Of a DNA stretch of 64,000 nt, positions 10,472 to 24,159 are shown piece after piece. Position 1 is the stretch's first letter. The number at the start of each line of letters is the position of its first letter. Below the pieces are notes generated by a model that did not search any database, was not told the origin of the DNA, and saw nothing but the letters and a program-made list of their open reading frames with translations. The stretch comes from Streptomyces sp. H39-S7 (GTDB taxonomy: Bacteria > Actinomycetota > Actinomycetes > Streptomycetales > Streptomycetaceae), in the NCBI RefSeq assembly GCF_027158205.1, contig NZ_JAPVLU010000026.1, forward strand, positions 1 through 64,000. The letters run 5' to 3'. The position numbers were made by a program, and so were the translations under genes.

Positions 10472-10759
10472 TTACTTGGCGCCGGCCGCACCGCGGCGGA
10501 TGCCGAGGCGCTCGACCAGGGCGCGGAAGCGCGTGATGTCCTTCTTGGCCAGGTACTGCAGCAGACGGCGGCGCTGGCCGACGAGGAGCAGCAGGCCACG
10601 ACGGGAGTGGTGGTCGTGCTTGTGCAGCTTGAGGTGCTCGGTGAGGTCCGAGATACGGCGCGAGAGCATCGCGACCTGCACCTCGGGGGAGCCCGTGTCG
10701 CCCTCCTTGGCACCGAACTCGGCGATGATCTGCTTCTTCGTCGCGGCGTCGAGCGGCAT
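10472..10759 (-). CDS. rpsO: 30S ribosomal protein S15
   Basis: 95-residue S15, a primary 16S rRNA-binding protein of the small-subunit platform. The whole chain matches the family: [48 protein letters not shown], with the [11 protein letters not shown] block intact. ATG start with GAGGAG six bases upstream. It is followed by a strong hairpin and then pnp, the common bacterial rpsO-pnp order. Confidence 0.98.
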
Positions 10760-11242
10760 ACGAACTCCTCAGGTGTTGGTTTGCCTCCGAGTGCCCCTGG
10801 ACTGGAATCACAGGCGATCTTGGATAACTCTGGAGGCGAGGACGCGGGTTCTTACACACACATCCGTCAGCCAGGATACCAGCCGCGCGGGCACCGCTTT
10901 GCCGCGCTCCCCGGGGAGCTGCCCGGGGCGCCGGGTGGAGGGGGCCGCGGGTGCCCGCCGGAGGGGCGGGCCTGCCGTGGAACTGCCGCCGATGATTAGG
11001 GTGTCCCTTAGAGCGGCAGGAGCAGAAGAGGGCGGACAGCCCGAGTGGGGCAAGTAAAGGCTACTGCGGCACACCCGGGGGAGGGGATCGACGATGCAGC
11101 ACGCCGGATCACCCGGCCGCGCCCGTCGCGGAGACCGTCGCGCGATCGCCGACCGGTTCCGTTCGCCAGCAGGCCTTCAGCGCTCCACCGACCGTCCGTC
11201 CCTGCCGTTCGGATGCGTTTCAGAGATATACCAGGAGGCATT
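10760..11242. other. Divergent intergenic region, rpsO / MinD-like ATPase
   Basis: 483 gene-free bases between divergent genes. On the minus strand a possible rpsO -10 box TATCCT is at 10873-10878, about 115 bases before the ATG, without a convincing -35. The middle (10905-10985) is a G/C-rich block with several small competing palindromes. On the plus strand nothing but the ribosome site GGAGG (11234-11238 area) is clear. No small open frame with coding character was seen. Confidence 0.6.
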
Positions 11243-14200
11243 GTGAGCAGCGAGCGGGACGAGAACCGCGTGGGCGGGGCCGCCCCTGTCGAGGAGAGGG
11301 GCGACGCCGACTACACCGGCGAGTTCACCTTCGACTACACGCCGCCTGCCTGGTACATGCAGAACGCCGGTGCGGACGACAGCGGTGACGGCGATGGGGA
11401 TGACGTCGACGGGGGCGACTCGGGGGCGGGTAGCGGTTCCGGCGACGCGTCCGCTCCCTCCGTGGCGGAGGAGCCCGAGCGCGCGCCCGAGCCCCCGGTG
11501 GCGGCGGCGGAGCCGCCCGCTCCGCTGCCCGTGAGCCCGGTCGCGCCGCCGGCGGCCCCTGCGGCCGCGAGCGAGCCGACCTGGTCCGCGACCTCGGTGC
11601 CGTTCGTCCCGGCTCCCGCTCCCGAACCTGCCCGCGCTCCTGTCCCGGAGCCGGCTCCGGCTGCCGCCGCGGAACCGGTTCGCGCCGAGGCCGTCGCACC
11701 CGCTGTTCCGGCGTTTCCGACGCTGAAGCCGAGCGTCGGCGACGAGCGTCCGGCGGACGCCCCCGTGACCGAGCCCGAGCGGGACGACGACGAGCTGCCG
11801 GGCGCGGTCCGGAGCGAGTCGACGGTGCGGATCGCGCCCGGATCGCTGCGCCAGCGGCCCGGAGCGGACAAGCCCGAAGGCGCGTCGACGCCCGCGGAGC
11901 CGGAGGCGACTCCGGAACCGGATCCGGAGCAGGACGCCCCTCCGCCGTCCTCCGGTCCCGTCTGGGTGCCCACGGCGCCGCCGGCGCCGGTCGCGGCGTG
12001 GTCCCCCGCTCCCCCGCAGAGCGCGGTCCCGCCGCTGCCGCCGCAGTTCCAGGCCGCGGACACCCCCGCGAGGCCGCCGCTCCCCGACGACCGGGCCACC
12101 CCGCCCACGGGCGCGCCCTGGCCCGCTCCCGCGCCCGGCGCGGACTACACGTTCGCTCCCCCGGCGCCGCCCGAGGCCGTCGAGCCGGCCACCCCGCCGA
12201 CCCCTGCGGGATCCGGCACGCCGAACCTCCCGGCCCCGCGCGCGGCAGCGCCTCTTCAGCAGCAGGACGGCTACGACTCCCCGCGCCCCGCCGACGCGCC
12301 CCCGGCTCCCGCACCCGTAGACCACCCGGAGCAGAACACGCCCCCGCCGGCAGCCCAGCAGCCCCCGCTGGCACAGGGGTCCTACGGCTTCCCGCGCCCC
12401 GCCTCCGACACACCGGAGCCGGCAGCACCACGACCGCCGCTCGCACAGGACGGCTACGGCTTCCCCCGGCCGGTCATCGACGCGCCGGAAACCCCCACTC
12501 CCCCGCCGGCAGCACAGCAGCCGCCGCTCGCACAGGACGGCTACGGCTTCCCGCCTCCCGGCGCCGACGCGCCGGCGCCGGCTCCCGCGCCGCAGGGCGG
12601 GTACGGGTTCCCGCAGCCGGGGCAGGCCGGGCAGCCGCCGCTGGCGCCTGCGCCGGAGGACCGGACGCCGCCGCCCGCGCCCTGGCCCAACCCCGCGCCG
12701 GCTCCGCAGCCCCAGTACGGCTTCCCGCCGGCCGCGGCGCAGCCGCAGCTCCCGCCGGCGCAGCAGCCGCCGCAGGGCGGGTACGCATACCCGGCTCCCG
12801 CTGATGTTCCGCCGTCGCCGCAGACCCCCGAGGACCGCGCTCCCGCACCCTCGGCGGCACCGTGGCCGAGTCCCAACCCGCCTGCCCCGCAGCCCGGCTA
12901 CGGGTTCCCGCAGGGCGGCCAGTCGGCGCAGCCCCAGCAGCCGCAGCAGCCGCAGCCGGGCACGTTCGCGCCGCTGCCGCAGCCCGCTCCGGAGGACCGC
13001 GGTGCTCCGCCCACCGGCGCACCCTGGCCCAACCCCGCGCTGCCCCCGGCCGCCCCGGCCCCGGCTCCGCAGCAGGGGTACGGGTTCCCGCAGGGCGGGG
13101 CTCCGCAGCCGCCCGTCGCGCCGGGGCCTGAGGCGCCCGCTCCCCAGCCGCAGGCCGGCTACGGCTTCCCGCCGCCCGCGGCGCCGCTGCCGCCGGAGGC
13201 CAACCCCGGTGCGGCGTTGCAGCCGCTGCCGCCGCACGGCGGATACGGTTTCCCGCCGCAGGGACAGCAGCCGCAAGCCCAGCCGCAGGCTCAACCGCAA
13301 CCCCAGCCCCAGCAGTACGCGCAGCCCCAGCCGCAGGCGCAGCCCCACCCGGCTCCCGCCGAGGGGCCGGCCGCCGATCCGCGTACCGGCGGCTGGCCGA
13401 CGGTGACGCCGGACCAGCGCCAGCGTTCGGTGCAGGGCGCGCCGCTCGGTTACACCGCGGCCGTCGAGCTGTCGTCGGACCGGCTGCTGAAGAACCAGCC
13501 GAAGCCGAAGCGGCCCGGCGCCAACGCGACGCCGTCGCGCTTCAAGCTGGGCGGCAAGAAGGAGGAGGCGGAGCGGCAGCGGAAGCTGGAGCTGATCCGT
13601 ACTCCGGTGCTGTCCTGCTACCGGATCGCGGTGATCAGCCTCAAGGGCGGCGTCGGCAAGACCACGACGACCACCGCACTGGGCTCGACGCTGGCGACCG
13701 AGCGCCAGGACAAGATCCTCGCGATCGACGCCAACCCGGACGCCGGTACGCTCGGCCGCCGGGTCCGCCGGGAGACCGGTGCGACCATCCGCGACCTCGT
13801 GCAGGCGATCCCGTACCTCAACAGCTACATGGACATCCGCCGGTTCACCTCGCAGGCGTCCTCCGGGCTGGAGATCATCGCCAACGACGTGGACCCGGCC
13901 GTGTCGACCGCGTTCAACGACGAGGACTACCGCCGGGTCCTCGACGTGCTGGGCAAGCAGTACCCGATCATCCTCACCGACTCGGGCACCGGTCTGCTCT
14001 ACAGCGCGATGCGCGGCGTGCTCGACCTGGCCGACCAGCTGATCATCGTGTCCACGCCGTCCGTCGACGGCGCGAGCAGTGCGAGCACCACGCTGGACTG
14101 GCTGTCGGCGCACGGCTACGCCGAACTGGTGCAGCGCAGCATCACGGTCATCTCGGGAGTCCGCGAGACCGGCAAGATGATCAAGGTGGACGACATCGTC

Positions 14201-14722
14201 GCCCACTTCCAGACGCGCTGCCGCGGGGTGATGGTCGTCCCGTTCGACGAGCACCTGGCCGCGGGCGCGGAGGTCGACCTCGACATGATGCGTCCGAAGA
14301 CCCGGGAGGCGTACTTCAACCTCTCGGCCATGGTCGCCGAGGACTTCGTCCGCGCGCAGCAGGCACAGGGGCTGTGGACCGCCGACGGGAACCCGCCGCC
14401 GCACCTGCCACCGCCGGTCCCCGGTCAGCAGCAGGGCCCGCCGCCGGGTCAGCAGCAGTACCAGCAGCAGGCACCGCAGCAAGGTCAGCCGCAGTACCAG
14501 CAGCCGCAGCCGCCCCAGCCCGGGTTCCACGGCCACGCGCCCCAGGGTCCTGGCCAGCCGCACCCACAGGCACCGCAGCCGCCGCAGCAGTACCAGCCGC
14601 AGGCGCCGCAGCCGTACCAGCCGCAGCCGCAGCAGGGCTGGCCGCAGCAGCCTCCGCAGCAGGCCCCGCCGGAGCAGCCGCCGGGCTACGGCTACCCGCC
14701 GCCGCCTCCGCCCCAGCAGTAG
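11243..14722 (+). CDS. Proline-rich MinD/ParA-type ATPase, EspI-like
   Basis: 1159 residues from GTG 11243 (AGGAGG six bases upstream). The acidic N-terminus is followed by about 700 residues of Pro/Ala/Gln-rich sequence with nine YGFP motifs. Then comes a MinD-type deviant Walker ATPase: [10 protein letters not shown] at about 801-810, [13 protein letters not shown], and a LTDSGTG switch. The C-terminal 110 residues are Gln/Pro-rich. Long proline-rich arms on a MinD ATPase resemble EspI proteins of actinobacterial type VII (ESX) secretion loci. None of the ESX machinery (EccB/C/D/E, WXG100 proteins) is in this window, so the role here is unclear. The ATPase domain is certain; the EspI link is inference. 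Confidence 0.85.
12257..13265 (+). repeat. Degenerate repeats in the proline-rich arm
   Basis: Within the MinD-like gene, nine copies of [G/Q/S]YGFP (plus variants GYDSP, GYAYP) occur at roughly 25-60 residue spacing. They interleave with four copies of a second unit, [E/D]DR...APWP[N/S/A]P (the first just upstream, near 12093). The DNA is correspondingly repetitive, rich in CCG/CAG codons. It looks like expansion of a short peptide unit. Confidence 0.75.
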
Positions 14723-14959: not shown

Positions 14960-15904
14960 ATGATCGAAGCCCACGCACTCACCAAGCGCTACGGCGAGCG
15001 CACCGCCGTCGAGGAGCTCAGCTTCACCGTGCGGCCGGGGATCGTCACCGGTTTCCTCGGGCCCAACGGCGCCGGGAAGTCCACCACGATGCGGATGATC
15101 CTGGGTCTGGACGCGCCCTCCGGGGGCCGGGTCACGGTGAACGGACGGCACTACGCCGACCACCGGGCCCCGCTGCACGAGGTCGGCGCGATGCTGGAAG
15201 CCCGGGCGATCCACACCGGGCGCTCGGCGTACCACCATCTCCTCGCCCTCGCCGTCACCACGGGCATCCCGCGCGGCCGGGTCGACGAGGTGATCGACAT
15301 CGTGGGCCTGCGCGAGGTCGCGAGGAAGCGCGCGGGCGGCTTCTCGCTCGGCATGGGGCAGCGCCTCGGCATCGCGAGCGCGCTGCTCGGCGACCCCGCG
15401 ACGCTCGTCCTGGACGAGCCGGTCAACGGCCTGGATCCGGAGGGCATCCTGTGGATCCGCAACCTTCTGCGGAGCCTGGCCGCCGAAGGCCGTACGGTCC
15501 TGGTCTCCTCGCACCTGATGTCCGAGATGGCGCTCACCGCCGAGCACCTGATCGTGATCGGCCGCGGCCGGCTGATCGCCGACACCTCCGTGGAGGAGTT
15601 CGTCCGCGGCGCGGCGGGCACCTCGGTGCGGGTGCGGAGCGACGACGCGGACCGGCTGCGGAGGCTGCTGGCGGGTCCCGAGGTGACCGTGGAGTCGGAG
15701 GCGGCGGGCGTGCTGGAGGTGATCGGTCTGAGCAGCGACCGCATCGGCAGGATCGCCGCCGACCACGGCATCGCGCTCGGGGAACTGACCCCGCAGCAGC
15801 CCTCGTTGGAGCAGGCGTTCATGGAACTCACCCGGGACGCCGTGGAGTACCAGGCACCCGCCCCCGCCACGCAATTCTCCGCCCGCGAAGGAAGTGCGGC
15901 ATGA
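14960..15904 (+). CDS. ABC transporter ATP-binding protein (exporter type)
   Basis: 314-residue ATPase of the BcrA/DrrA-like type. Walker A GPNGAGKST is at 34-42, the signature region is SLGMGQRLGIASALL, Walker B is LVLDEP, and the switch His is in VLVSSHLMSEM. The C-terminal 90 residues are the usual accessory domain of this class. Its stop overlaps the start of the permease gene (ATGA), so they form one export complex. A two-component system follows, as in many streptomycete antibiotic- or envelope-stress-responsive exporters. The substrate cannot be told from sequence. Confidence 0.92.
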   Translation: MIEAHALTKRYGERTAVEELSFTVRPGIVTGFLGPNGAGKSTTMRMILGLDAPSGGRVTVNGRHYADHRAPLHEVGAMLEARAIHTGRSAYHHLLALAVTTGIPRGRVDEVIDIVGLREVARKRAGGFSLGMGQRLGIASALLGDPATLVLDEPVNGLDPEGILWIRNLLRSLAAEGRTVLVSSHLMSEMALTAEHLIVIGRGRLIADTSVEEFVRGAAGTSVRVRSDDADRLRRLLAGPEVTVESEAAGVLEVIGLSSDRIGRIAADHGIALGELTPQQPSLEQAFMELTRDAVEYQAPAPATQFSAREGSAA

Positions 15905-16725
15905 CCACCCTCCTCGACCGGACACCCACCGCGAGCGCCCCCGCCGGTCGCGGCCACGTGACCCAGCTCCGGGTGGTGCACTCCGAGTGGATCAAGCTGC
16001 GCACCCTGCGGTCCACGCTCATCACGCTGACCGCCGCCGTGGTCGCGATGATCGGCCTCGGACTGCTCTTCTGCGCGGTCAGCGCGAACCGTTGGCCCCA
16101 TATGGACCGGGGTGAGCAGCTCAGGTTCAGCGCGGCCGGAGTGAGCGTACGGGGCTTCCTGCTCGCGCAGCTCGCCGTCGCGGTCCTCGGCGTCCTCGTG
16201 GTCACCGGCGAGTACGCGACCGGCATGATCCGCGCGACGTTCGCCGCCGTGCCACGACGACTTCCGGTGCTGTGGGCGAAGGCCGCCGTGTACACGGCGG
16301 TGACGTTCGTCGCGATGACGACGGCGTCGCTCATCGCGTTCCTGGCCGGCCAGGCGATCCTGTCGTCCCAGCACATCGGTACGACGCTCGGCGCGCCCGG
16401 CGCCGCCCGCATGGTCTTCGGCGCCGGCCTGTACCTCACCGTCGTGGGCCTGCTGAGCGTGGCCATCGGCACCCTCGTCCGCAGTACCGCGGGCGGCATC
16501 GCCACCGTCTTCGGGCTGCTCATGGTGCTGCCGCTGCTCGCCGACTCGCTGCCGTCCACCTGGTCCGTCAGCGAGTACCTGCCGGGCAACGCGGGGCAGG
16601 CCCTGCTCGTGGCCCACCCGGAGCCGCATATCTTGGCCCCATGGACCGGGTTCGCAGTCTTCTGCCTCTACACGGCCGTCGCCCTGGCAGCGGCGGCGGC
16701 AGCACTCAGGCGCCGGGACGCGTGA
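15901..16725 (+). CDS. ABC transporter permease (ABC-2 type)
   Basis: 274 residues from ATG 15901, overlapping the ATPase stop by four bases. About six hydrophobic segments are visible (starting near residues 40, 80, 120, 160, 190 and 240), and the HSEWIKLRTLRST entry motif is typical of ABC-2 permeases paired with BcrA-like ATPases. It would form the membrane part of the exporter. It is followed four bases later by the histidine kinase gene, indicating a single operon with the regulators. Confidence 0.88.
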   Translation: MTTLLDRTPTASAPAGRGHVTQLRVVHSEWIKLRTLRSTLITLTAAVVAMIGLGLLFCAVSANRWPHMDRGEQLRFSAAGVSVRGFLLAQLAVAVLGVLVVTGEYATGMIRATFAAVPRRLPVLWAKAAVYTAVTFVAMTTASLIAFLAGQAILSSQHIGTTLGAPGAARMVFGAGLYLTVVGLLSVAIGTLVRSTAGGIATVFGLLMVLPLLADSLPSTWSVSEYLPGNAGQALLVAHPEPHILAPWTGFAVFCLYTAVALAAAAAALRRRDA

Positions 16726-16729
16726 GACC

Positions 16730-17998
16730 GTGACGCGGCTCCGGCGGACGGTGCGCGCCTGGGGCACCGCCCTCGGGCGGGTCCGGCTGCTGGTGCGGGC
16801 GAAACTGCCGCCGGTCGCCGTCGACGCGGCGCTCACCGCGGCGCTGCTGCTCGCGACGGCCGGCCTGTCCCACCGTGACCTGGCCCGCTCGCCCTCCCTC
16901 ATGGTCTTCCAATGGCTGCTGCTGCTCCCGCTGGTGTGGCGGCGGCGGGCCCCGCTGGCCGTCTTCGGTGTCCTGGCGGCGGTCGCGTTCCTCCAGTGGC
17001 TGGCCGGTGCCCCGCTCCCCGCCGATGTCGCGCTGCTCATCGCGCTGTACACCGTGGCCGCGCACTCCACCCGGCGCAGGACGCTGCTGGCCTTCGCCGT
17101 ACTCGAACTCGGCACGCTGCTGGCCGCGTTGACCTGGGCGACGCACGGACGCACCACCCAGTCGTTCATCGCGCTGTCGGCGATGGTGATCGCCGCCGCG
17201 GTGATCGGGGTCAACATGCGCACCCGGCGCGCCTACCTCGCCGCGCTGGAGGACCGGGCGGGACGGCTGGAGCGGGAGCGCGACCAGCGGGCGCAGCTCG
17301 CGGTGGCCGGTGAACGGGCCAGGATCGCCCGGGAGATGCACGACATCGTCACCCACAACCTGTCCGTGATGGTCGCGCTCGCCGACGGCGCGGTCTTCGC
17401 GCAGGAGCGGCATCCGGAGAAGGCGGCCGCCGCGATGCGGCAGGTCTCCGGGACCGGCCGGCAGGCCATCACCGACATGCGCCGCTTCCTCGGCGTGCTG
17501 CGTGCCGACGAACCCGACGCGCTGCGCCATCCCATGCCGGGCATCGCCCAGTTGGAACCGCTCGCGGAGCAGGTGCGCGCCGCCGGGCTGCCGACCCGCC
17601 TCAGCGTCGCAGGGGACCCGGCCGTGGCCAACGCGGCCGCCCAGCTCACCGTCTACCGACTGGTACAGGAAGCCTTGACCAATACCCTCAAGCACGCCCC
17701 GGCCGGCACCCGTGCCGACGTCCGGGTGCGCTGCTCCCCCGTTTCCGTCCGCGTGGACGTCACCGACGACGGCCCCGCCACGACCACGCCGACGCCCCCG
17801 TCCGGGCACGGGATCGCCGGGATGCGCGAACGGGCGGCCGCGTACGGCGGGCAGCTCGACGCGGGCCCGCGGCCGGAGGGCGGGTGGCGGGTATCGGCCG
17901 TGCTCACCCTGATCCCGGACCAGGACGAGGACGCGCCCCAGGACGGCGACGCGCCTCACCACGCGGACGCGCAGCGGGCCGGGGGCGGTGCCCTGTGA
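16730..17998 (+). CDS. Sensor histidine kinase, NarL-partner (HisKA_3) type
   Basis: 422 residues from GTG 16730. Five or so N-terminal transmembrane helices (up to about residue 162) and a short coiled stretch are followed by the HisKA_3 phosphoacceptor box RIAREMHDIVTHNLSVM with His204. The ATPase domain ends with GHGIAGMRERAAAYGG. There is no large extracellular sensor, so it is an intramembrane-sensing type, common beside ABC exporters. Its stop overlaps the response regulator start (GTGA). It probably controls the upstream ABC genes. Confidence 0.93.
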   Translation: MTRLRRTVRAWGTALGRVRLLVRAKLPPVAVDAALTAALLLATAGLSHRDLARSPSLMVFQWLLLLPLVWRRRAPLAVFGVLAAVAFLQWLAGAPLPADVALLIALYTVAAHSTRRRTLLAFAVLELGTLLAALTWATHGRTTQSFIALSAMVIAAAVIGVNMRTRRAYLAALEDRAGRLERERDQRAQLAVAGERARIAREMHDIVTHNLSVMVALADGAVFAQERHPEKAAAAMRQVSGTGRQAITDMRRFLGVLRADEPDALRHPMPGIAQLEPLAEQVRAAGLPTRLSVAGDPAVANAAAQLTVYRLVQEALTNTLKHAPAGTRADVRVRCSPVSVRVDVTDDGPATTTPTPPSGHGIAGMRERAAAYGGQLDAGPRPEGGWRVSAVLTLIPDQDEDAPQDGDAPHHADAQRAGGGAL

Positions 17999-18660
17999 CG
18001 ATCCGGGTGCTTCTCGTCGACGACGAACCGCTGCTGCGGATGGCCTTCACGATGGTCCTCGACGCCCAGCCCGACATGGAGCCGGTCGGCGAGGCCGCCG
18101 ACGGCGCCGAGGCCGTCCGCCTGACGCTCGCGCTGCGGCCCGACGTGGTGCTGATGGACGTCCGGATGCCCGGCACGGACGGGATCGAGGCCACCGGCCG
18201 GATCGTCGAGTCCTGCCCGGAGACCCGGGTACTGATCCTGACCACGTTCGACCTGGACGAATACGCCTTCGCCGGGCTGCGGGCGGGCGCGTCCGGCTTC
18301 CTGCTCAAGAACGCGCTGCCCGAGGAACTGCTCGCCGCGATCCGGTCGGTGGCCGCGGGCGACGCCGTCGTCGCGCCCCGGATCACCCGCCGCCTGCTGG
18401 AGAACTTCGCCCACCAGCTCCCGGCCGGGAGCAGCGCGGCGGACGGCGACGAGCGGCTCGGCCGGCTCACCGCGCGGGAGCGCGAGGTGCTGGTCGAGGT
18501 CGGCCGCGGGCTGTCCAACACGGAGATCGCCGCGGGGCTGCACCTCGCCGAGGCGACCGTGAAGACCCACCTGAGCCGGATCCTGGTGAAGCTCGGGCTG
18601 CGCGACCGCGTGCAGGCCGTGGTCTTCGCCTACGAGACGCGGCTGATCCGGCCGTCCTGA
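17995..18660 (+). CDS. NarL/FixJ-family response regulator
   Basis: 221 residues from GTG 17995, overlapping the kinase gene by four bases. The receiver domain has acidic DD at 9-10, phospho-acceptor Asp55 (VLMDVRMPG) and Lys in FLLKNA. The LuxR-type helix-turn-helix (LTAREREVLVEVGRGLSNTEIAAGLHL) is at about 156-182. It is the partner of the adjacent kinase and likely regulator of the ABC exporter operon. It converges with ribF 13 bases away, with no visible terminator in that short gap. Confidence 0.95.
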   Translation: MTIRVLLVDDEPLLRMAFTMVLDAQPDMEPVGEAADGAEAVRLTLALRPDVVLMDVRMPGTDGIEATGRIVESCPETRVLILTTFDLDEYAFAGLRAGASGFLLKNALPEELLAAIRSVAAGDAVVAPRITRRLLENFAHQLPAGSSAADGDERLGRLTAREREVLVEVGRGLSNTEIAAGLHLAEATVKTHLSRILVKLGLRDRVQAVVFAYETRLIRPS

Positions 18661-18673
18661 GGCCGCGGCCCGG

Positions 18674-19633
18674 TCAGGAGGTGGGCGTCGTCGCGTCCTC
18701 GATCAGTTCGCGGGACTGCTTCACGTCCTCGGCCATCCGGACGAGCAGCGCGTCGATCGACGCGAACTTCTCCATGCCACGCAGGTACGCGAGGAAGTCG
18801 ACGGCCACGTGCAGCCCGTACAGGTCCAGCCCGACGCGGTCGATCGCGTACGCCTCGACCGTGCGGGCGGTACCGTCGAAGGTCGGGTTCGTACCGACGG
18901 AGATGGCGGCGGGCATCGCCTCGCCGTCCACGTGCAGCCAGCCGGCGTACACGCCGTCCGCGGGGATCGCGGTGTGCGGCAGCGTCTCCACGTTCGCCGT
19001 CGGGAAGCCCAGCTCACGGCCGCGCTGCGCGCCCCGGACGACGACGCCCTCGACGCGGTGCGGACGGCCCAGGATCTCCATGGCGCCCGCGACGTCGCCC
19101 TCGCCGACCAGCCGGCGCGTCATCGTCGACGAGAACGGCTCGCCGCCGCCCGCGGAACCGCGCACGTACAGGTCCACGACATCGACCTCGTAGTCGTACT
19201 TCAGGCCCATCGCGGAGAGGAACTCGACGTCACCGGCGGCCTTGTGCCCGAACCGGAAGTTCGGGCCCTCGACGACGAGCTTCGCGTGCAGCGCGTCGAC
19301 GAGCACCGTCCGCACGAAATCGCCGGGCGACAGCTTCGAGAACTCGGCGGTGAAGGGGAGGATGAGCAGCGCGTCGACGCCCAGCCCCTCCATCAGCTCG
19401 GCACGGCGGTGGTGCGCGGACAGCAGCGGCGGGTGGCTGCCCGGCCGCACGACCTCGCTGGGGTGCGGATCGAACGTGACGACCACCGATCGGACGCCCA
19501 GCTCACGGGCGCGGTCGACGGCCTGCCCGATGATCAGCTGATGCCCCCTGTGCACACCGTCGTAGGAGCCGATGGTGACGACGCTGCGTCCCCAGTCCCC
19601 GGGAACGTCCTCCAAGCCCCGCCAGCGCTGCAC
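18674..19633 (-). CDS. ribF: Bifunctional riboflavin kinase / FAD synthetase
   Basis: 319 residues; converts riboflavin to FMN and then FAD. The N-terminal nucleotidyltransferase domain has GSYDGVHRGHQ (residues 22-32), and the C-terminal flavokinase domain has FPTANVE and GVYAGW. The start is GTG 19631-19633 (VQRWRGLEDV), with GGAG seven bases upstream. An in-frame upstream ATG adds a 22-residue non-conserved tail and is rejected. ribF usually lies directly next to truB; here a 4.2-kb gene separates them. Confidence 0.95.
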   Translation of the reverse strand: MQRWRGLEDVPGDWGRSVVTIGSYDGVHRGHQLIIGQAVDRARELGVRSVVVTFDPHPSEVVRPGSHPPLLSAHHRRAELMEGLGVDALLILPFTAEFSKLSPGDFVRTVLVDALHAKLVVEGPNFRFGHKAAGDVEFLSAMGLKYDYEVDVVDLYVRGSAGGGEPFSSTMTRRLVGEGDVAGAMEILGRPHRVEGVVVRGAQRGRELGFPTANVETLPHTAIPADGVYAGWLHVDGEAMPAAISVGTNPTFDGTARTVEAYAIDRVGLDLYGLHVAVDFLAYLRGMEKFASIDALLVRMAEDVKQSRELIEDATTPTS

Positions 19634-19764
19634 CTTGACGCTCCGCTTCCTCGTCGTACCGAATAGCTGTGTATGCCTGTACGGGTCCAAGCCTGCCATG
19701 TCCCCGTGCCCGGCTCAGCCACCGGCCCCGCCGCCGCGCCCGCGGCACGGGCTCCGACCGGCGG

Positions 19765-22700
19765 CTACGAGGTGGACGGCACAGCGAGTTGCTCGCAGCG
19801 GCGGCGGGCGCTGGGGCCGATCACGGCGTCCCAGGCGCCGTCGGAGTCCAGCCAGCCGCGGACCAGCCGGGCGAAGCACGGCGAGGCGGCGGCGAGCTGC
19901 ACCAGGCGCCGGTCGAAGTGCGCGGCGCCTTCCGGGGTGCGCCCGAGGACCAGGCCGAGCCGGTGCACGAGGTCGCGGGTGAGCAGCGGCGGACGGCGGG
20001 CGCAGCCGTCGGCGGCGGCGCCGAGCAGCGCGTCCAGCACGTCGGGGTCCCGTTCGTGTTCCAGCGCCACGTCGAGCAGTTCCTGGCGCATCGGCCGGGA
20101 GATGTGGCTGCCGGGTGCGGCGAGTACCGGGGCCAGCGCGCGCCGCACCTCCGGAGGGTGTTCCCGCAACACCTCCACGACCAGCGGAAACAGCACGGCG
20201 CGGGCCGACCCGCCCTGCTCGAGGCGCAGGTCGAGGAAGGCGGCCGCGTGGACGGCGCCCTCCGGCCGGTGCCGCAGGTGGTCCCGTACGAGTCCGGCCG
20301 CGCGGCGGGCCAGCGCGGGGGTGCTCACCCCCGCCAGTTCGCGCAGCACCTCGGCGGCGCCCGCTCCCGGCTCCCGCAGCCGTGCCTGGAACGCGGCGAG
20401 CACCGGTTCGGGATGCGAGGCGAGCGCGGCGGCGAGGGCGCCCGCCGGAAGCTGCGGGTCGCCCGCGGCGAAGTGGGCGAGCGCGGCCGGCAGATGACGT
20501 GAGCGGGTCGCCGGGTCCCGGACGAGGAGCGCCAGAGCCGCTCCGTGCAGCGTGCAGTCCGCGGTGCGGGCGAGCATCGCGAGCGCCGCGTAGCGCAGCA
20601 GTTCCCGGTCGGCGTCGGATCGTACGTACGGCGCGGCGCGCAGCCCGTACGCGGCGGCGGCGACGTGCCGGGCGGGCCGTTCGTCGTGCGCCCAGCGGTC
20701 GACGGCGCGGCAGACCGCCGACGGTTCGTCCTCGGCGAGGGCCGCCAGCAGCTCGTCGGCCCCGGGGTGCGCGGCCTCGACCAGCGCCTCGGTCAGATCG
20801 TCCACGGCGCGCTGCCGGTGGGTGTGCAGCAGCGCCTGGACGGCGGCGGCCACGGTCGGGCGCGGGCCCTTCAGCGCCTCGTCCGTCTGCAGCGGCCGGT
20901 CGTCGCCGAACCAGCCGCAGATGACGGGCAGTACGGAGCGCGGCGCGGCGCAGAGCAGGTCCCCGACGGTCGTCAGGAACCGCTCGGCGGGCCCGGAGGG
21001 ATTCGGGTGCTGCTGCGGGGTCTGGGGCTGCGGCGGTCCGTCGGCGGGCAGGAGCAGGCGCAGCAGGTCGAGCCGTTCGTCGAGCGGCAGTGCCAGCCGC
21101 CGCCAGAACCACGGGCCGAAGTCCCCCAGCCCGCCGAGCCCTTGCGGACCGAACCCGCCGCGCTCGATCGACCGCACGGCGATCCGTTCCGCCAGCAGCC
21201 GCAGCACGCCCCGGTACTGGCTGCTGTCCGGCACCCGCAGCAGGACCTCGCCCAGCAGATGCGCCGCCCACCACAAGGCGTCCGCCCGCCGGGCCGCCTC
21301 CGGCGCGGGTACGGGCGCCGGCACGGCCGGCGGGTTCGGTGGCTTCGGCGGGCGGGGGTCCCCGGCCCCTCCTTCAGGGGCCGCCTCCGTCGCGACCGGG
21401 TTCCGGGGCGGCGGCACCGTCGCCCGTCCGGCAACGGGCCGCCGGTTCGGCACCGTGTCGGCATCGAGGTGGGCGTCAGCATCGGCATCGAGGTCGGCGT
21501 CGGCATCGGCCGGCGCGGTGGCGCCGCCATCGAAGGCGCGGTCCATGAGGCGGTCCGTCAGAGACGGTCCCGGGGGCGTCGCGTCCGCCGACGTCCGGGG
21601 CGAGGCCGGAGACGGTGCGCAAGCGGCGGGGTGGAGCGGCCCGGCTGCTTCCTCCGCCGGGGAGTGGGGCGGCGCGGGAGGGGCGGAACGGCGTGACTCC
21701 ACGGTCCCCTCCGCCGGGGCCCACGACGGTGTGCCGGCCGCGGAACGCTGCGGTTCGGCAGCCTCCTGTGCCGGGGACCGCGGCGGTGACGGGTGCCCGT
21801 CCGGGTGGCGTGCGGGGGCGCGGGCCGCGCCCGCCTTCACCGCCTGCGCCGGAGGCGCCAGGCGGCTCGGCTCGGCGGCCTGCTGGTCGAGGGCGTGGAC
21901 CAGCGTTTCGAGGTGCCGGGCGAGTTCGGTGGGGCCGGACTGGCGGGCGGTGTGCAGCAGCGACTGGATGACGGGACCGATGCGGTGCCGCGGCACCGGA
22001 AGCGCGTGCGGGGCGGCGGCGGGGCCGAGCGGAGGGGCGGGCGGGACGGTGTGCCCGGGGGCGTGTCCCGCGCGGGCTCCCGGACGTGAGGGCAGCCGGA
22101 CGGGGGCCTCCGCCGCGCCCGCCGGGGCCGCGAACCACCGGTGGACGAGGGCGAACAGCGCCTCGTCCAGGTCCAGGTGCAGCCCCTGCAGCCAGTCGGC
22201 GAACTCCTCGTGGGCGAAGCGGTATCCGGATCCCGCCGGGACGACGAGGCCCTCGGTGAGGACCGCCGAGGCCCACCCCGTGCGCCAGGGGAAGAGGTCC
22301 TCGAAGGACTCGCGGTCCAGTTCGCCCTGTCCCGGCCCCAGACAGCGTCGCGCCGCCTCGTGCACCTGCCCGGCCACCCGCGCGGCCAGCCGCCGGACGG
22401 CGGTCCCCCGGGCGGGGCTGTCGGCGCCCGCCGTCAGCCGGACGGCGATCCGCAGGCATACCAGGTCCAGATAGGCGGAGAAGATCTCCGTGCGGTCGGG
22501 CACGGCGGTTCCCCCGCCGGGCGCGCCCGGCGCGTCGGGCTCCGGGAGGGCCGCGCGGATCTCCGCGAAGAGCCGCAGTGCCAGCGGATGGGCGGCGTCG
22601 GCCGCGGCCAGCGCTACCGGCGCGATGCGGTACCGGGCCCTCGCGCGGCCGGCCTGCCGCTCCGGGAGGTCACCGAGGCGGACGCAGGCCGGCAGCGCGC

Positions 22701-23961
22701 GGGCCGGGGCGCCGGGCGGCACGGCCGGCGCCTCCTCGGGCGCGTGGAGCATTCCGGCGGGGAACAGGGCGCCTGCCTGCTCCCAGTACTCGGGGCGGCA
22801 GGCCACGACGAGCCGGACGCCACCGGCCCGCAGCCAACTCGCGGTACCCGCCGTCCAGTCGGGCAGCGCGTGCGCCAGGACGGGCGGCATCTCCTCGGGG
22901 CCGTCGAGCAGGACGACCAGCGGGCGGCCCGCCGACCGGGCCAGGTCCGCGACGGCGTCCGGGGAGGCGACGGGCGCCTCGCCCCGGCCGTCGCCCGCCG
23001 CGGCCGAGACGATCCGCGCGGCCGTCCGCAGTGAGCGCTCCACCGCGTCCTTCAGCCCGCCGTCGCCCGGACGCAGTTCGGCGCCGCGCAGCCACACCGT
23101 CGGGGCGGGCTCAGCACCCCGGGCACGGCGGGCGGCCAGCGCCGCCAGTTCGGTGGTGCGCCCGCAGCCGGGGTCGGCGACCAGGCCCAGCACGAGCGGT
23201 CCGCGGTCCCCTCCCCCGTCGAGGAAGGCGCGCAGCTCGTCCTCCGTCTCCGGCCGGGCGACCGGCTCGCGCCATTCGCGCGGTACGGCCGCGGAACCGA
23301 CCGAGGTGGCCGTCAGCTGCAGTGCGCCCGCGAGGTTCAGGTGCGGCCCGTAGGCGGGCACGGTGGCGGCGTTGCGGGCGAGCAGCTCCGCCAGCGGCCC
23401 CCACTCGGCCCGCAGCGGGACAGCGAAGCCTTCGGCCCGGTGCCCGGCGTGCAGCGCGGTGGCGATGACGGCCAGCACCGCGCCGGTCTCCGCGTCGATC
23501 ACGGGGCTGCCGGACGCCTGCGGGTGGACCCGCAGCACCTCCGGTGCGCCGAGGGCGAGTTCGTAGACCTCGTCGAGGAGGTGGAACCGGTCGGTCGCGG
23601 TGTAGGTCACGGCGGCGCTGCCGACGACCACGGCGTCCGTCCACCCGCCGGCTCGCAGCCGCACCCGGCGTTCCGGGTGCGCGGGTCCGCTGACGGCGAC
23701 CGGTAGCGGCCGGAGGTTGAGGCCTTCCGTCGCGACGAGCGCGAGCCCCAGTTCGGGCAGCGGCGTGATCGCGTCCGCGCCGACGAGGCAGACCTGGTCG
23801 CCGGGAGCGTGCAGCACCAGCCGGGCGAGGCCGTCGACTGCCTCATGACTCGTCAGGAGAGTGCCGCCGAGGTCCGCGAGGAACCCCGTTCCGCGCGGCC
23901 GTCCGGCCAGATCGCACACCCGCACCAACGCGTCGTCACCGTCGCAGGGCCGCACCCCCAT
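19765..23961 (-). CDS. Giant trypsin-like domain / P-loop NTPase fusion protein
   Basis: 1398 residues from ATG 23959-23961 (GGAGAGG upstream). Residues 1-200 resemble a trypsin-like peptidase: RGTGFLADLGGTLLTSHEAV gives the His (H39), and ASGSPV gives the Ser (S150). The expected Asp in the LPELGLALV region is a Gly, and the usual G-x-S is Q-A-S. Residues 250-560 look like a P-loop NTPase: a Walker-A-like GLVADPGCGRTT at 259-270 with Arg instead of Lys, a Walker B PLVVLLDG at 347-354, then helical sequence. A Pro/Ala-rich linker (about 690-890) leads to a 500-residue Ala/Leu-rich helical-repeat C-terminus. The layout recalls STAND-type signalling/conflict ATPases. Function unknown. Confidence 0.8.
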   Translation of the reverse strand: MGVRPCDGDDALVRVCDLAGRPRGTGFLADLGGTLLTSHEAVDGLARLVLHAPGDQVCLVGADAITPLPELGLALVATEGLNLRPLPVAVSGPAHPERRVRLRAGGWTDAVVVGSAAVTYTATDRFHLLDEVYELALGAPEVLRVHPQASGSPVIDAETGAVLAVIATALHAGHRAEGFAVPLRAEWGPLAELLARNAATVPAYGPHLNLAGALQLTATSVGSAAVPREWREPVARPETEDELRAFLDGGGDRGPLVLGLVADPGCGRTTELAALAARRARGAEPAPTVWLRGAELRPGDGGLKDAVERSLRTAARIVSAAAGDGRGEAPVASPDAVADLARSAGRPLVVLLDGPEEMPPVLAHALPDWTAGTASWLRAGGVRLVVACRPEYWEQAGALFPAGMLHAPEEAPAVPPGAPARALPACVRLGDLPERQAGRARARYRIAPVALAAADAAHPLALRLFAEIRAALPEPDAPGAPGGGTAVPDRTEIFSAYLDLVCLRIAVRLTAGADSPARGTAVRRLAARVAGQVHEAARRCLGPGQGELDRESFEDLFPWRTGWASAVLTEGLVVPAGSGYRFAHEEFADWLQGLHLDLDEALFALVHRWFAAPAGAAEAPVRLPSRPGARAGHAPGHTVPPAPPLGPAAAPHALPVPRHRIGPVIQSLLHTARQSGPTELARHLETLVHALDQQAAEPSRLAPPAQAVKAGAARAPARHPDGHPSPPRSPAQEAAEPQRSAAGTPSWAPAEGTVESRRSAPPAPPHSPAEEAAGPLHPAACAPSPASPRTSADATPPGPSLTDRLMDRAFDGGATAPADADADLDADADAHLDADTVPNRRPVAGRATVPPPRNPVATEAAPEGGAGDPRPPKPPNPPAVPAPVPAPEAARRADALWWAAHLLGEVLLRVPDSSQYRGVLRLLAERIAVRSIERGGFGPQGLGGLGDFGPWFWRRLALPLDERLDLLRLLLPADGPPQPQTPQQHPNPSGPAERFLTTVGDLLCAAPRSVLPVICGWFGDDRPLQTDEALKGPRPTVAAAVQALLHTHRQRAVDDLTEALVEAAHPGADELLAALAEDEPSAVCRAVDRWAHDERPARHVAAAAYGLRAAPYVRSDADRELLRYAALAMLARTADCTLHGAALALLVRDPATRSRHLPAALAHFAAGDPQLPAGALAAALASHPEPVLAAFQARLREPGAGAAEVLRELAGVSTPALARRAAGLVRDHLRHRPEGAVHAAAFLDLRLEQGGSARAVLFPLVVEVLREHPPEVRRALAPVLAAPGSHISRPMRQELLDVALEHERDPDVLDALLGAAADGCARRPPLLTRDLVHRLGLVLGRTPEGAAHFDRRLVQLAAASPCFARLVRGWLDSDGAWDAVIGPSARRRCEQLAVPSTS

Positions 23962-24159
23962 TCGCGCACCTCTCCGCTGGTCAACCGCCTTCGACGGTAT
24001 GCCCACGATGATCGTCCGCTACTGATCGCGCACCCAATGCGCCCCCGTACACCCCGTGGTTCACTCCGAGCGCCCGCCCATTGGGGTGAATTCAGGGTGC
24101 GGGGCGGATACGTATACGGGGAGGAGGGGGATTGTGGAGCGGCCGTTCGTGGGGGACGC

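Follow-up and report, generated by a model that had tools for sequence, protein, structure and literature searches.

A conserved SCO5717-family MinD/ParA-like ATPase kept at a Streptomycetaceae locus from which the ESX cluster has been lost

In the mycobacterial ESX-1 (type VII) secretion system, the EspI protein consists of a disordered, proline-rich N-terminal part followed by a MinD-like P-loop NTPase domain, and a passage of PMC11302016 cites it in connection with the lowering of ESX-1 secretion at low ATP. ESX genes are also described for Streptomyces in portions of PMC4239341 and PMC8401907, the latter of which presents the system as one thought to act in development and not virulence. 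Here we consider a gene of similar architecture at positions 11243-14722 (+ strand) of a 64,000-nucleotide stretch of the Streptomyces sp. H39-S7 genome (contig NZ_JAPVLU010000026.1), the whole of which we call the window. The gene encodes a MinD/ParA-like ATPase of the SCO5717 family. Our comparisons make it likely that this is an autonomous, conserved ATPase and not an ESX part bereft of its machine, and its main role probably lies outside secretion.

The gene starts with a GTG at 11243, four bases downstream of an AGGAGG (11233-11238), and its stop codon ends at 14722, giving a protein of 1,159 amino acids. Residues 1-43 match the NCBIfam model NF041021 (SCO5717_Nterm) with 61.7 bits against a cut-off of 35, and they contain a conserved peptide (residues 25-38; 11315-11356, +) to which we return below. 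A proline-rich, low-complexity arm follows (11369-13500, +), in which GYGFP-type repeats can be read from the sequence (seven by the pattern used, nine GFP). Next come a MinD/ParA-type ATPase domain (13523-14332, +) and a Pro/Gln-rich C-terminal tail, read from the translation (14384-14719, +). The domain carries LKGGVGKTT, which we take to be a deviant Walker A motif with its signature lysine, and residues 795-939 match Pfam AAA_31 and CbiA, both above their cut-offs. An AlphaFold model of the domain (predicted local distance difference test, pLDDT, 86.8; predicted template modeling score, pTM, 0.87) has its last helix predicted at 258-281, with the Pro/Gln tail after it. The modeled domain matches PDB structures of MinD, ParA, Soj, and FlhG/FleN with template modeling (TM) scores of about 0.6-0.7, including 0.63-0.68 against 3r9j, 3ea0, 1g3q, and 4rz3.

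The protein thus shares a deviant Walker motif and a predicted fold with the MinD, ParA, and FlhG/FleN ATPases. Unlike them, it has long proline-rich stretches on both sides of the domain, and it falls far short of the cut-offs of the MinD model TIGR01968 (41.3 bits versus 212.9) and the ParA partition model NF041546 (32.8 bits versus 180). With an N-terminal peptide over cut-off, a proline-rich arm, and a MinD-like domain, it agrees with the SCO5717 family; NF041021 covers the N-terminal domain alone, and the "growth-regulating ATPase" of its title is a family name and no more. An initial annotation, made from the DNA letters alone, had called the protein EspI-like. That likeness holds for the architecture only. 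The window ATPase lies outside any ESX locus and is kept in genomes without ESX. A search of one literature library returned no paper naming SCO5717, and among the papers listed we recognized none as dealing with the window ATPase or with ESX loss at its locus. The finding that the gene is retained without ESX, and that of a promoter-like element described below, come from the present analysis.

The interval in which the gene lies is bordered on the left by rpsO (10472-10759, -; 95 amino acids) and on the right by ribF (18674-19699, -; profile match). Between them the window holds the ATPase, an ATP-binding cassette (ABC) exporter, a two-component system, and nothing else; no ESX genes were found between rpsO and ribF. 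The first observation of the initial annotation, a proline-rich MinD-type ATPase with no ESX genes nearby, is therefore confirmed by the NF041021, AAA_31, and CbiA matches and by the gene content of the interval. It had also placed the ESX genes and bldB of S. coelicolor in this interval. Such a layout is seen in G009, which belongs to a different genus of the Streptomycetaceae and has EccB, EccC, EccD, EccE, a WXG100 protein, and a DUF397 (BldB-type) gene there. In both G009 and G088 the order is rpsO, eccD, eccC, WXG100-type and other genes, eccB, eccE, p257, ATPase, and ribF, where p257 is a protein of 257-281 amino acids whose gene immediately precedes that of the ATPase in ESX-plus loci. 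The eccB of G088 is accompanied by a mycosin-like gene (264 bits, below the cut-off of 279). At the site of this cluster, the window has 213 bases up to the promoter-like element (10760-10972).

The interval was also compared among relatives, as the initial annotation had proposed. Our sample of 200 Streptomycetaceae genomes includes 35 of the window's own genus (code g1, which we take probably to be Actinacidiphila of GTDB). In 18 of these the locus lacks ESX, with rpsO and the ATPase lying side by side and no intervening ESX marker; in 14, ESX genes stand directly upstream of the ATPase; the other three were left unassigned, one because its contig ends (G135) and two as fragmented assemblies whose locus was not fetched (G021 and G075). 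Collapsed loci also occur outside the genus, in G040, G185, G169, G175, G095, G048 (g9), and G007 (g7), although the frequency of ESX-minus loci in other genera is meaningless because genomes with weak or no EccC were picked. In a 49-genome set (24 ESX-minus and 25 ESX-plus), rpsO is 0.26-3.6 kb from the mechanically called open reading frame (ORF) of the ATPase in all 24 ESX-minus loci. G007 (C30; L107:2810-3228) retains a decaying ESX gene in the form of two eccD fragments that separate rpsO from the ATPase. A search for p257 in 26 genomes chosen as ESX-minus or ambiguous gave no match in 24 of them, and p257 was found in the four controls; the exceptions were G130, which has p257 with an ESX cluster on another contig, and G112, which has two fragments only.

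We mapped the ESX state onto a RibF and TruB tree of 47 genomes, from which G094 and G127 had been dropped for having no RibF/TruB genes. Parsimony gives seven changes, six of them forced by well-supported branches, and bootstrap trees give six to eight. In every ESX-plus genus that we examined the cluster has one and the same position, and for that reason we also allowed losses alone, under which we infer about 12 losses on the drawn tree, several at weakly supported forks. On this tree the window genome (G000) has G112, G055, and G079 as its nearest neighbors. Judged from gene order in its relatives, the ESX cluster is lost at the window's locus.

The initial annotation had proposed that the ATPase may be left over from an ESX locus that was lost. 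This is correct for the locus, as the relatives' cluster between rpsO and the ATPase and the eccD fragments of G007 indicate, but it is not supported for the ATPase itself. A search at E <= 1e-60 detected the ATPase domain in 197 of the 200 family genomes, in 17 of 17 genera, and in 34 of the 35 Actinacidiphila. Two of the three misses are fragmented assemblies (670 and 1,260 contigs), and one is 76% complete. Selection on the domain was measured over 270 codons as the ratio of nonsynonymous to synonymous substitution rates (dN/dS), taken as a ratio of means over pairs that were chosen as near relatives and are non-independent. On this measure the 14 ESX-minus pairs gave 0.046 for the domain and the 12 ESX-plus pairs 0.061; the corresponding values for ribF were 0.095 and 0.113. 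Across all within-group pairs, the dN of the ATPase relative to that of ribF was 0.41 in g1 ESX-minus, 0.58 in g1 ESX-plus, 0.48 in g9 ESX-minus, and 0.59 in g9 ESX-plus genomes. In five pairs drawn from the window's clade (G000, G112, G079, and G055; dS 0.06-0.14), the 270 codons show zero amino acid changes, alongside 4-12 changes in ribF and 10-18 in truB.

Upstream of the gene, a promoter-like element, TGCC-N19-TTAGGGT (10973-11002, +), ends 240 bases before the start codon and occurs once in the window. Its general pattern, TG[AC]C-N19-TTAG[GTC]NT, was derived post hoc from an alignment of upstream regions, with spacers of 16-21 allowed in the first scan. With its spacer of 19, the element stands upstream of the ATPase in 41 of the 49 genomes. 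In 39 of them it is within 900 bases of the ORF start on the same strand (20 of 24 ESX-minus, 19 of 25 ESX-plus); the two further matches, in G106 and G130, are on the same strand and farther upstream of an ORF whose called form is shortened by a frame change. No other match occurred in the 1.95 Mb of strands from the 49-genome loci, and spacers of 17, 18, 20, or 21 gave none in those loci. As the pattern was built on the very sequences that were scanned, the evidence lies in the lack of background matches and the constancy of the spacer and not in the count alone. A generic sigma-70 scan found nothing.

An account that sees in the ATPase a passive leftover, which escaped deletion by chance and is now in decay, can draw on the loss of ESX at the locus, on the eccD fragments beside the ATPase in G007, and on sequence changes in ESX-minus genomes. 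Specifically, the peptide and the domain are in different frames in three of 24 (G130, G106, and G082), and the center of the peptide is altered in ten. A split frame is also found, however, in one of 25 ESX-plus genomes (G025). We consider this account very improbable, because the domain is equally constrained without ESX, the promoter-like element is kept, and the gene is near-universal in the family. These same three observations support the alternative that the initial annotation had offered, an ATPase with a separate role. On the sequence evidence, the ATPase domain is without sign of function loss and is separable from type VII secretion. In G068, which lies outside the 49-genome set, the open-frame lengths differ. 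G094 (C37; L055:9329-11284) carries a second, shorter copy of the ATPase, of 651 amino acids, whose domain is 96% identical; a nearby ORF resembles a tyrosine recombinase by eye.

It could be argued that the ATPase is still an EspI-type regulator, serving type VII-like secretion through EccC-like systems elsewhere in the genome. The window genome is a 9.5-Mb draft of 146 contigs, and it was searched for EccB, EccC, EccD, and BldB, which the initial annotation had proposed to look for. EccB, sought with TIGR03919 and positive controls (the Pfam EccB search gave no match even in controls), had no match at 1e-5 in this draft, in a search that was positive in 15 of 30 genomes, including all four ESX-plus controls. 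No bldB ortholog was established: the best match to the DUF397 protein of G009 was 57% over 72 amino acids, in a 79-amino-acid ORF on C70. In contrast, one EccC and one EccD exceeded their cut-offs, on different contigs. The best of six EccCa matches reaches 672 bits against a cut-off of 509 and runs into the end of C97, with 42-43% identity to canonical EccC; the others score at most 384 bits, among them C62, C95, and C80 (28-31% identity). The EccD match, on C95, has 102 bits against a cut-off of 95. Across the family, an EccCa match at 1e-60 is present in 199 of 200 genomes and is above cut-off in 189.

Despite these EccC-like genes, we regard it as unlikely that the ATPase still serves secretion through them. 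The retention of the gene in G185, an assembly of two contigs that is 100% complete and has no EccB, EccC, or EccD match, does not fit with it, nor does the absence of EccB from half of the 30 genomes chosen for that search, the window's among them. We also looked for homologues (E <= 1e-50) and strong EccC (< 1e-150) in a class sample of 246 genomes, 22 from Streptomycetaceae and 224 from other families. Homologues occur in 87 of the 224, and 39 of these 87 have no strong EccC. The initial annotation had named homologues that are never found together with ESX as an outcome that would speak against it; G185 and these 39 genomes bear this out in part. ESX genes lay beside the homologue in only two of 20 loci taken (L267 and L273), both of which had been picked for a nearby EccC, in a scan that used Streptomycetaceae ESX markers and may miss divergent genes. 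In G205, a member of another family, the homologue is the immediate neighbor of ribF, rpsO-pnp lies on its other side, and no ESX marker was detected between them; EccC is present on another contig. This placement between ribF and rpsO-pnp suggests that the link between the ATPase and ribF is old.

Several observations nevertheless weigh against an autonomous ATPase, beyond the EccC and EccD of the window genome and the split frames. Wherever ESX is present at the locus, the ATPase is downstream of eccE and p257 and in the same direction. The loci were collected around ATPase matches, so the 24 ESX-minus loci are uninformative on whether the gene can be lost, and its retention rests on the 200-genome domain search. 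Outside the family, 48 of the 87 homologue-bearing genomes have strong EccC, compared with 25 of the 137 without a homologue (Fisher p 1.5e-8, uncorrected for phylogeny). Among the matches listed, the homologue is within about 10 kb of EccC in at least six genomes, all of family f4 (G229, G246, G300, G338, G373, and G396). The N-terminal peptide adds to this side. In the 49-genome set, all 25 ESX-plus genomes have its looser center, [FY]xPP[AS]WY, compared with 14 of the 24 ESX-minus ones; for the stricter D[FY]xPP[AS]WY the counts are 23 of 25 and 13 of 24 (Fisher p 0.0036, uncorrected for phylogeny). Since the center is altered in ESX-minus genomes only, of the 49 compared, part of the peptide may serve ESX.

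The ten genomes with an altered center are all ESX-minus Actinacidiphila (G032, G039, G051, G071, G082, G085, G106, G115, G121, and G127). Their peptides retain E[FY] and [PS]AWY around a changed center such as EFSLGPRLPAWY. The window's clade retains the looser center, and so does each of the six ESX-minus genomes in the set that come from outside Actinacidiphila. Scanned as a DNA pattern, D[FY]xPP[AS]WY matched 88 of 121 family genomes, and the reversed control matched none. There was a single match in 85 of the 88, and those compared by eye, a subset of the matches, adjoin the ATPase domain. A second match was found in G045. The second matches in the window genome (C58; L051:9443-9973) and in G079 (L054:9535-10137) belong to GntR-type regulators of a RepSA-type mobile element, which bear the N-terminal peptide of the ATPase after the DNA-binding domain. 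A similar protein, encoded by a Streptomyces plasmid, carries the annotation of an SCO5717-family ATPase. In addition, a KAP-type P-loop NTPase in G032 (C12; L056:9276-11300) contains the related peptide DEFVIDDSPPAWYTQSE. The N-terminal peptide had no match in our phage collection.

The genes downstream of the ATPase might suggest that it forms one functional module with them, replacing ESX. In the window they are adjacent and co-directional: an ABC transporter ATPase (14960-15904, +; profile match), an ABC-2-type permease (15898-16725, +) that at 25.5 bits is just below the Pfam cut-off of 27, a sensor histidine kinase (16730-17998, +; profile match), and a LuxR-type response regulator (17995-18660, +; profile match). 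However, the same ABC and two-component genes adjoin the ATPase in ESX-plus genomes (G006, G043, G059, G063, G132, and others), and they were not detected at >=45% identity in the ESX-minus G091, G115, and G121. The histidine kinase, with a dN/dS of about 0.3, is also far looser than the ATPase domain. Because the presence of these genes does not follow ESX, we consider a replacement module very improbable. On the far side of ribF, between it and truB, the window encodes a protein of about 1,400 amino acids (19765-24006, -) with a weak trypsin-like match (23.8 bits, below cut-off); its relatives stand at the same place in many loci but not all.

A BldB at the window's locus was rejected, as no such gene lies inside the rpsO-ribF interval. 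A DUF397 (BldB-type) gene is kept between rpsO and the ATPase in all seven ESX-minus loci examined outside Actinacidiphila (L031, L077, L087, L088, L089, L107, and L108). In the literature, a passage of PMC10294661 describes BldB as a relatively poor DUF397 match, and one of PMC4384148 reports Kitasatospora without bldB. PMC8401907 reports that KE1, one of its selected Streptomyces genomes, has no ESX system resembling the one in S. scabies or S. coelicolor. In G130, whose rpsO-ribF locus has collapsed, C66 carries EccB, EccC, EccD, and p257 together, perhaps as a moved ESX cluster.

Returning to the ATPase as an autonomous protein, a working scheme can be proposed from its domains. Upon binding ATP, the deviant-Walker domain would dimerize on a surface, either the membrane or the nucleoid. 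The N-terminal peptide, at the tip of a long disordered arm, would recruit a partner or be captured by one, and hydrolysis would free the ATPase, allowing it to act in hyphal cells as a switch for positioning or for growth regulation. Where ESX is present, the ATPase may also tune it in the manner of EspI, a possible second job in which the center of the peptide may take part. A broader and more tentative proposal, which we think is more likely to fail than to hold in full, is that SCO5717-type ATPases are a core positioning switch of Streptomycetaceae, with a partly MinD/FlhG-like role in hyphae and recruitment through the TGEF-PPAWY peptide. RepSA-type elements would copy that peptide onto GntR regulators to reach the same partner, and ESX would be a dispensable client, repeatedly lost beside the ATPase.

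If the job of the ATPase is independent of ESX, the phenotypes of mutants in this region would need to be read again. Repeated natural deletions of ESX provide ready-made comparison strains. If our interpretation is true, a near-universal and strongly conserved ATPase of antibiotic-producing bacteria would become a testable gene.

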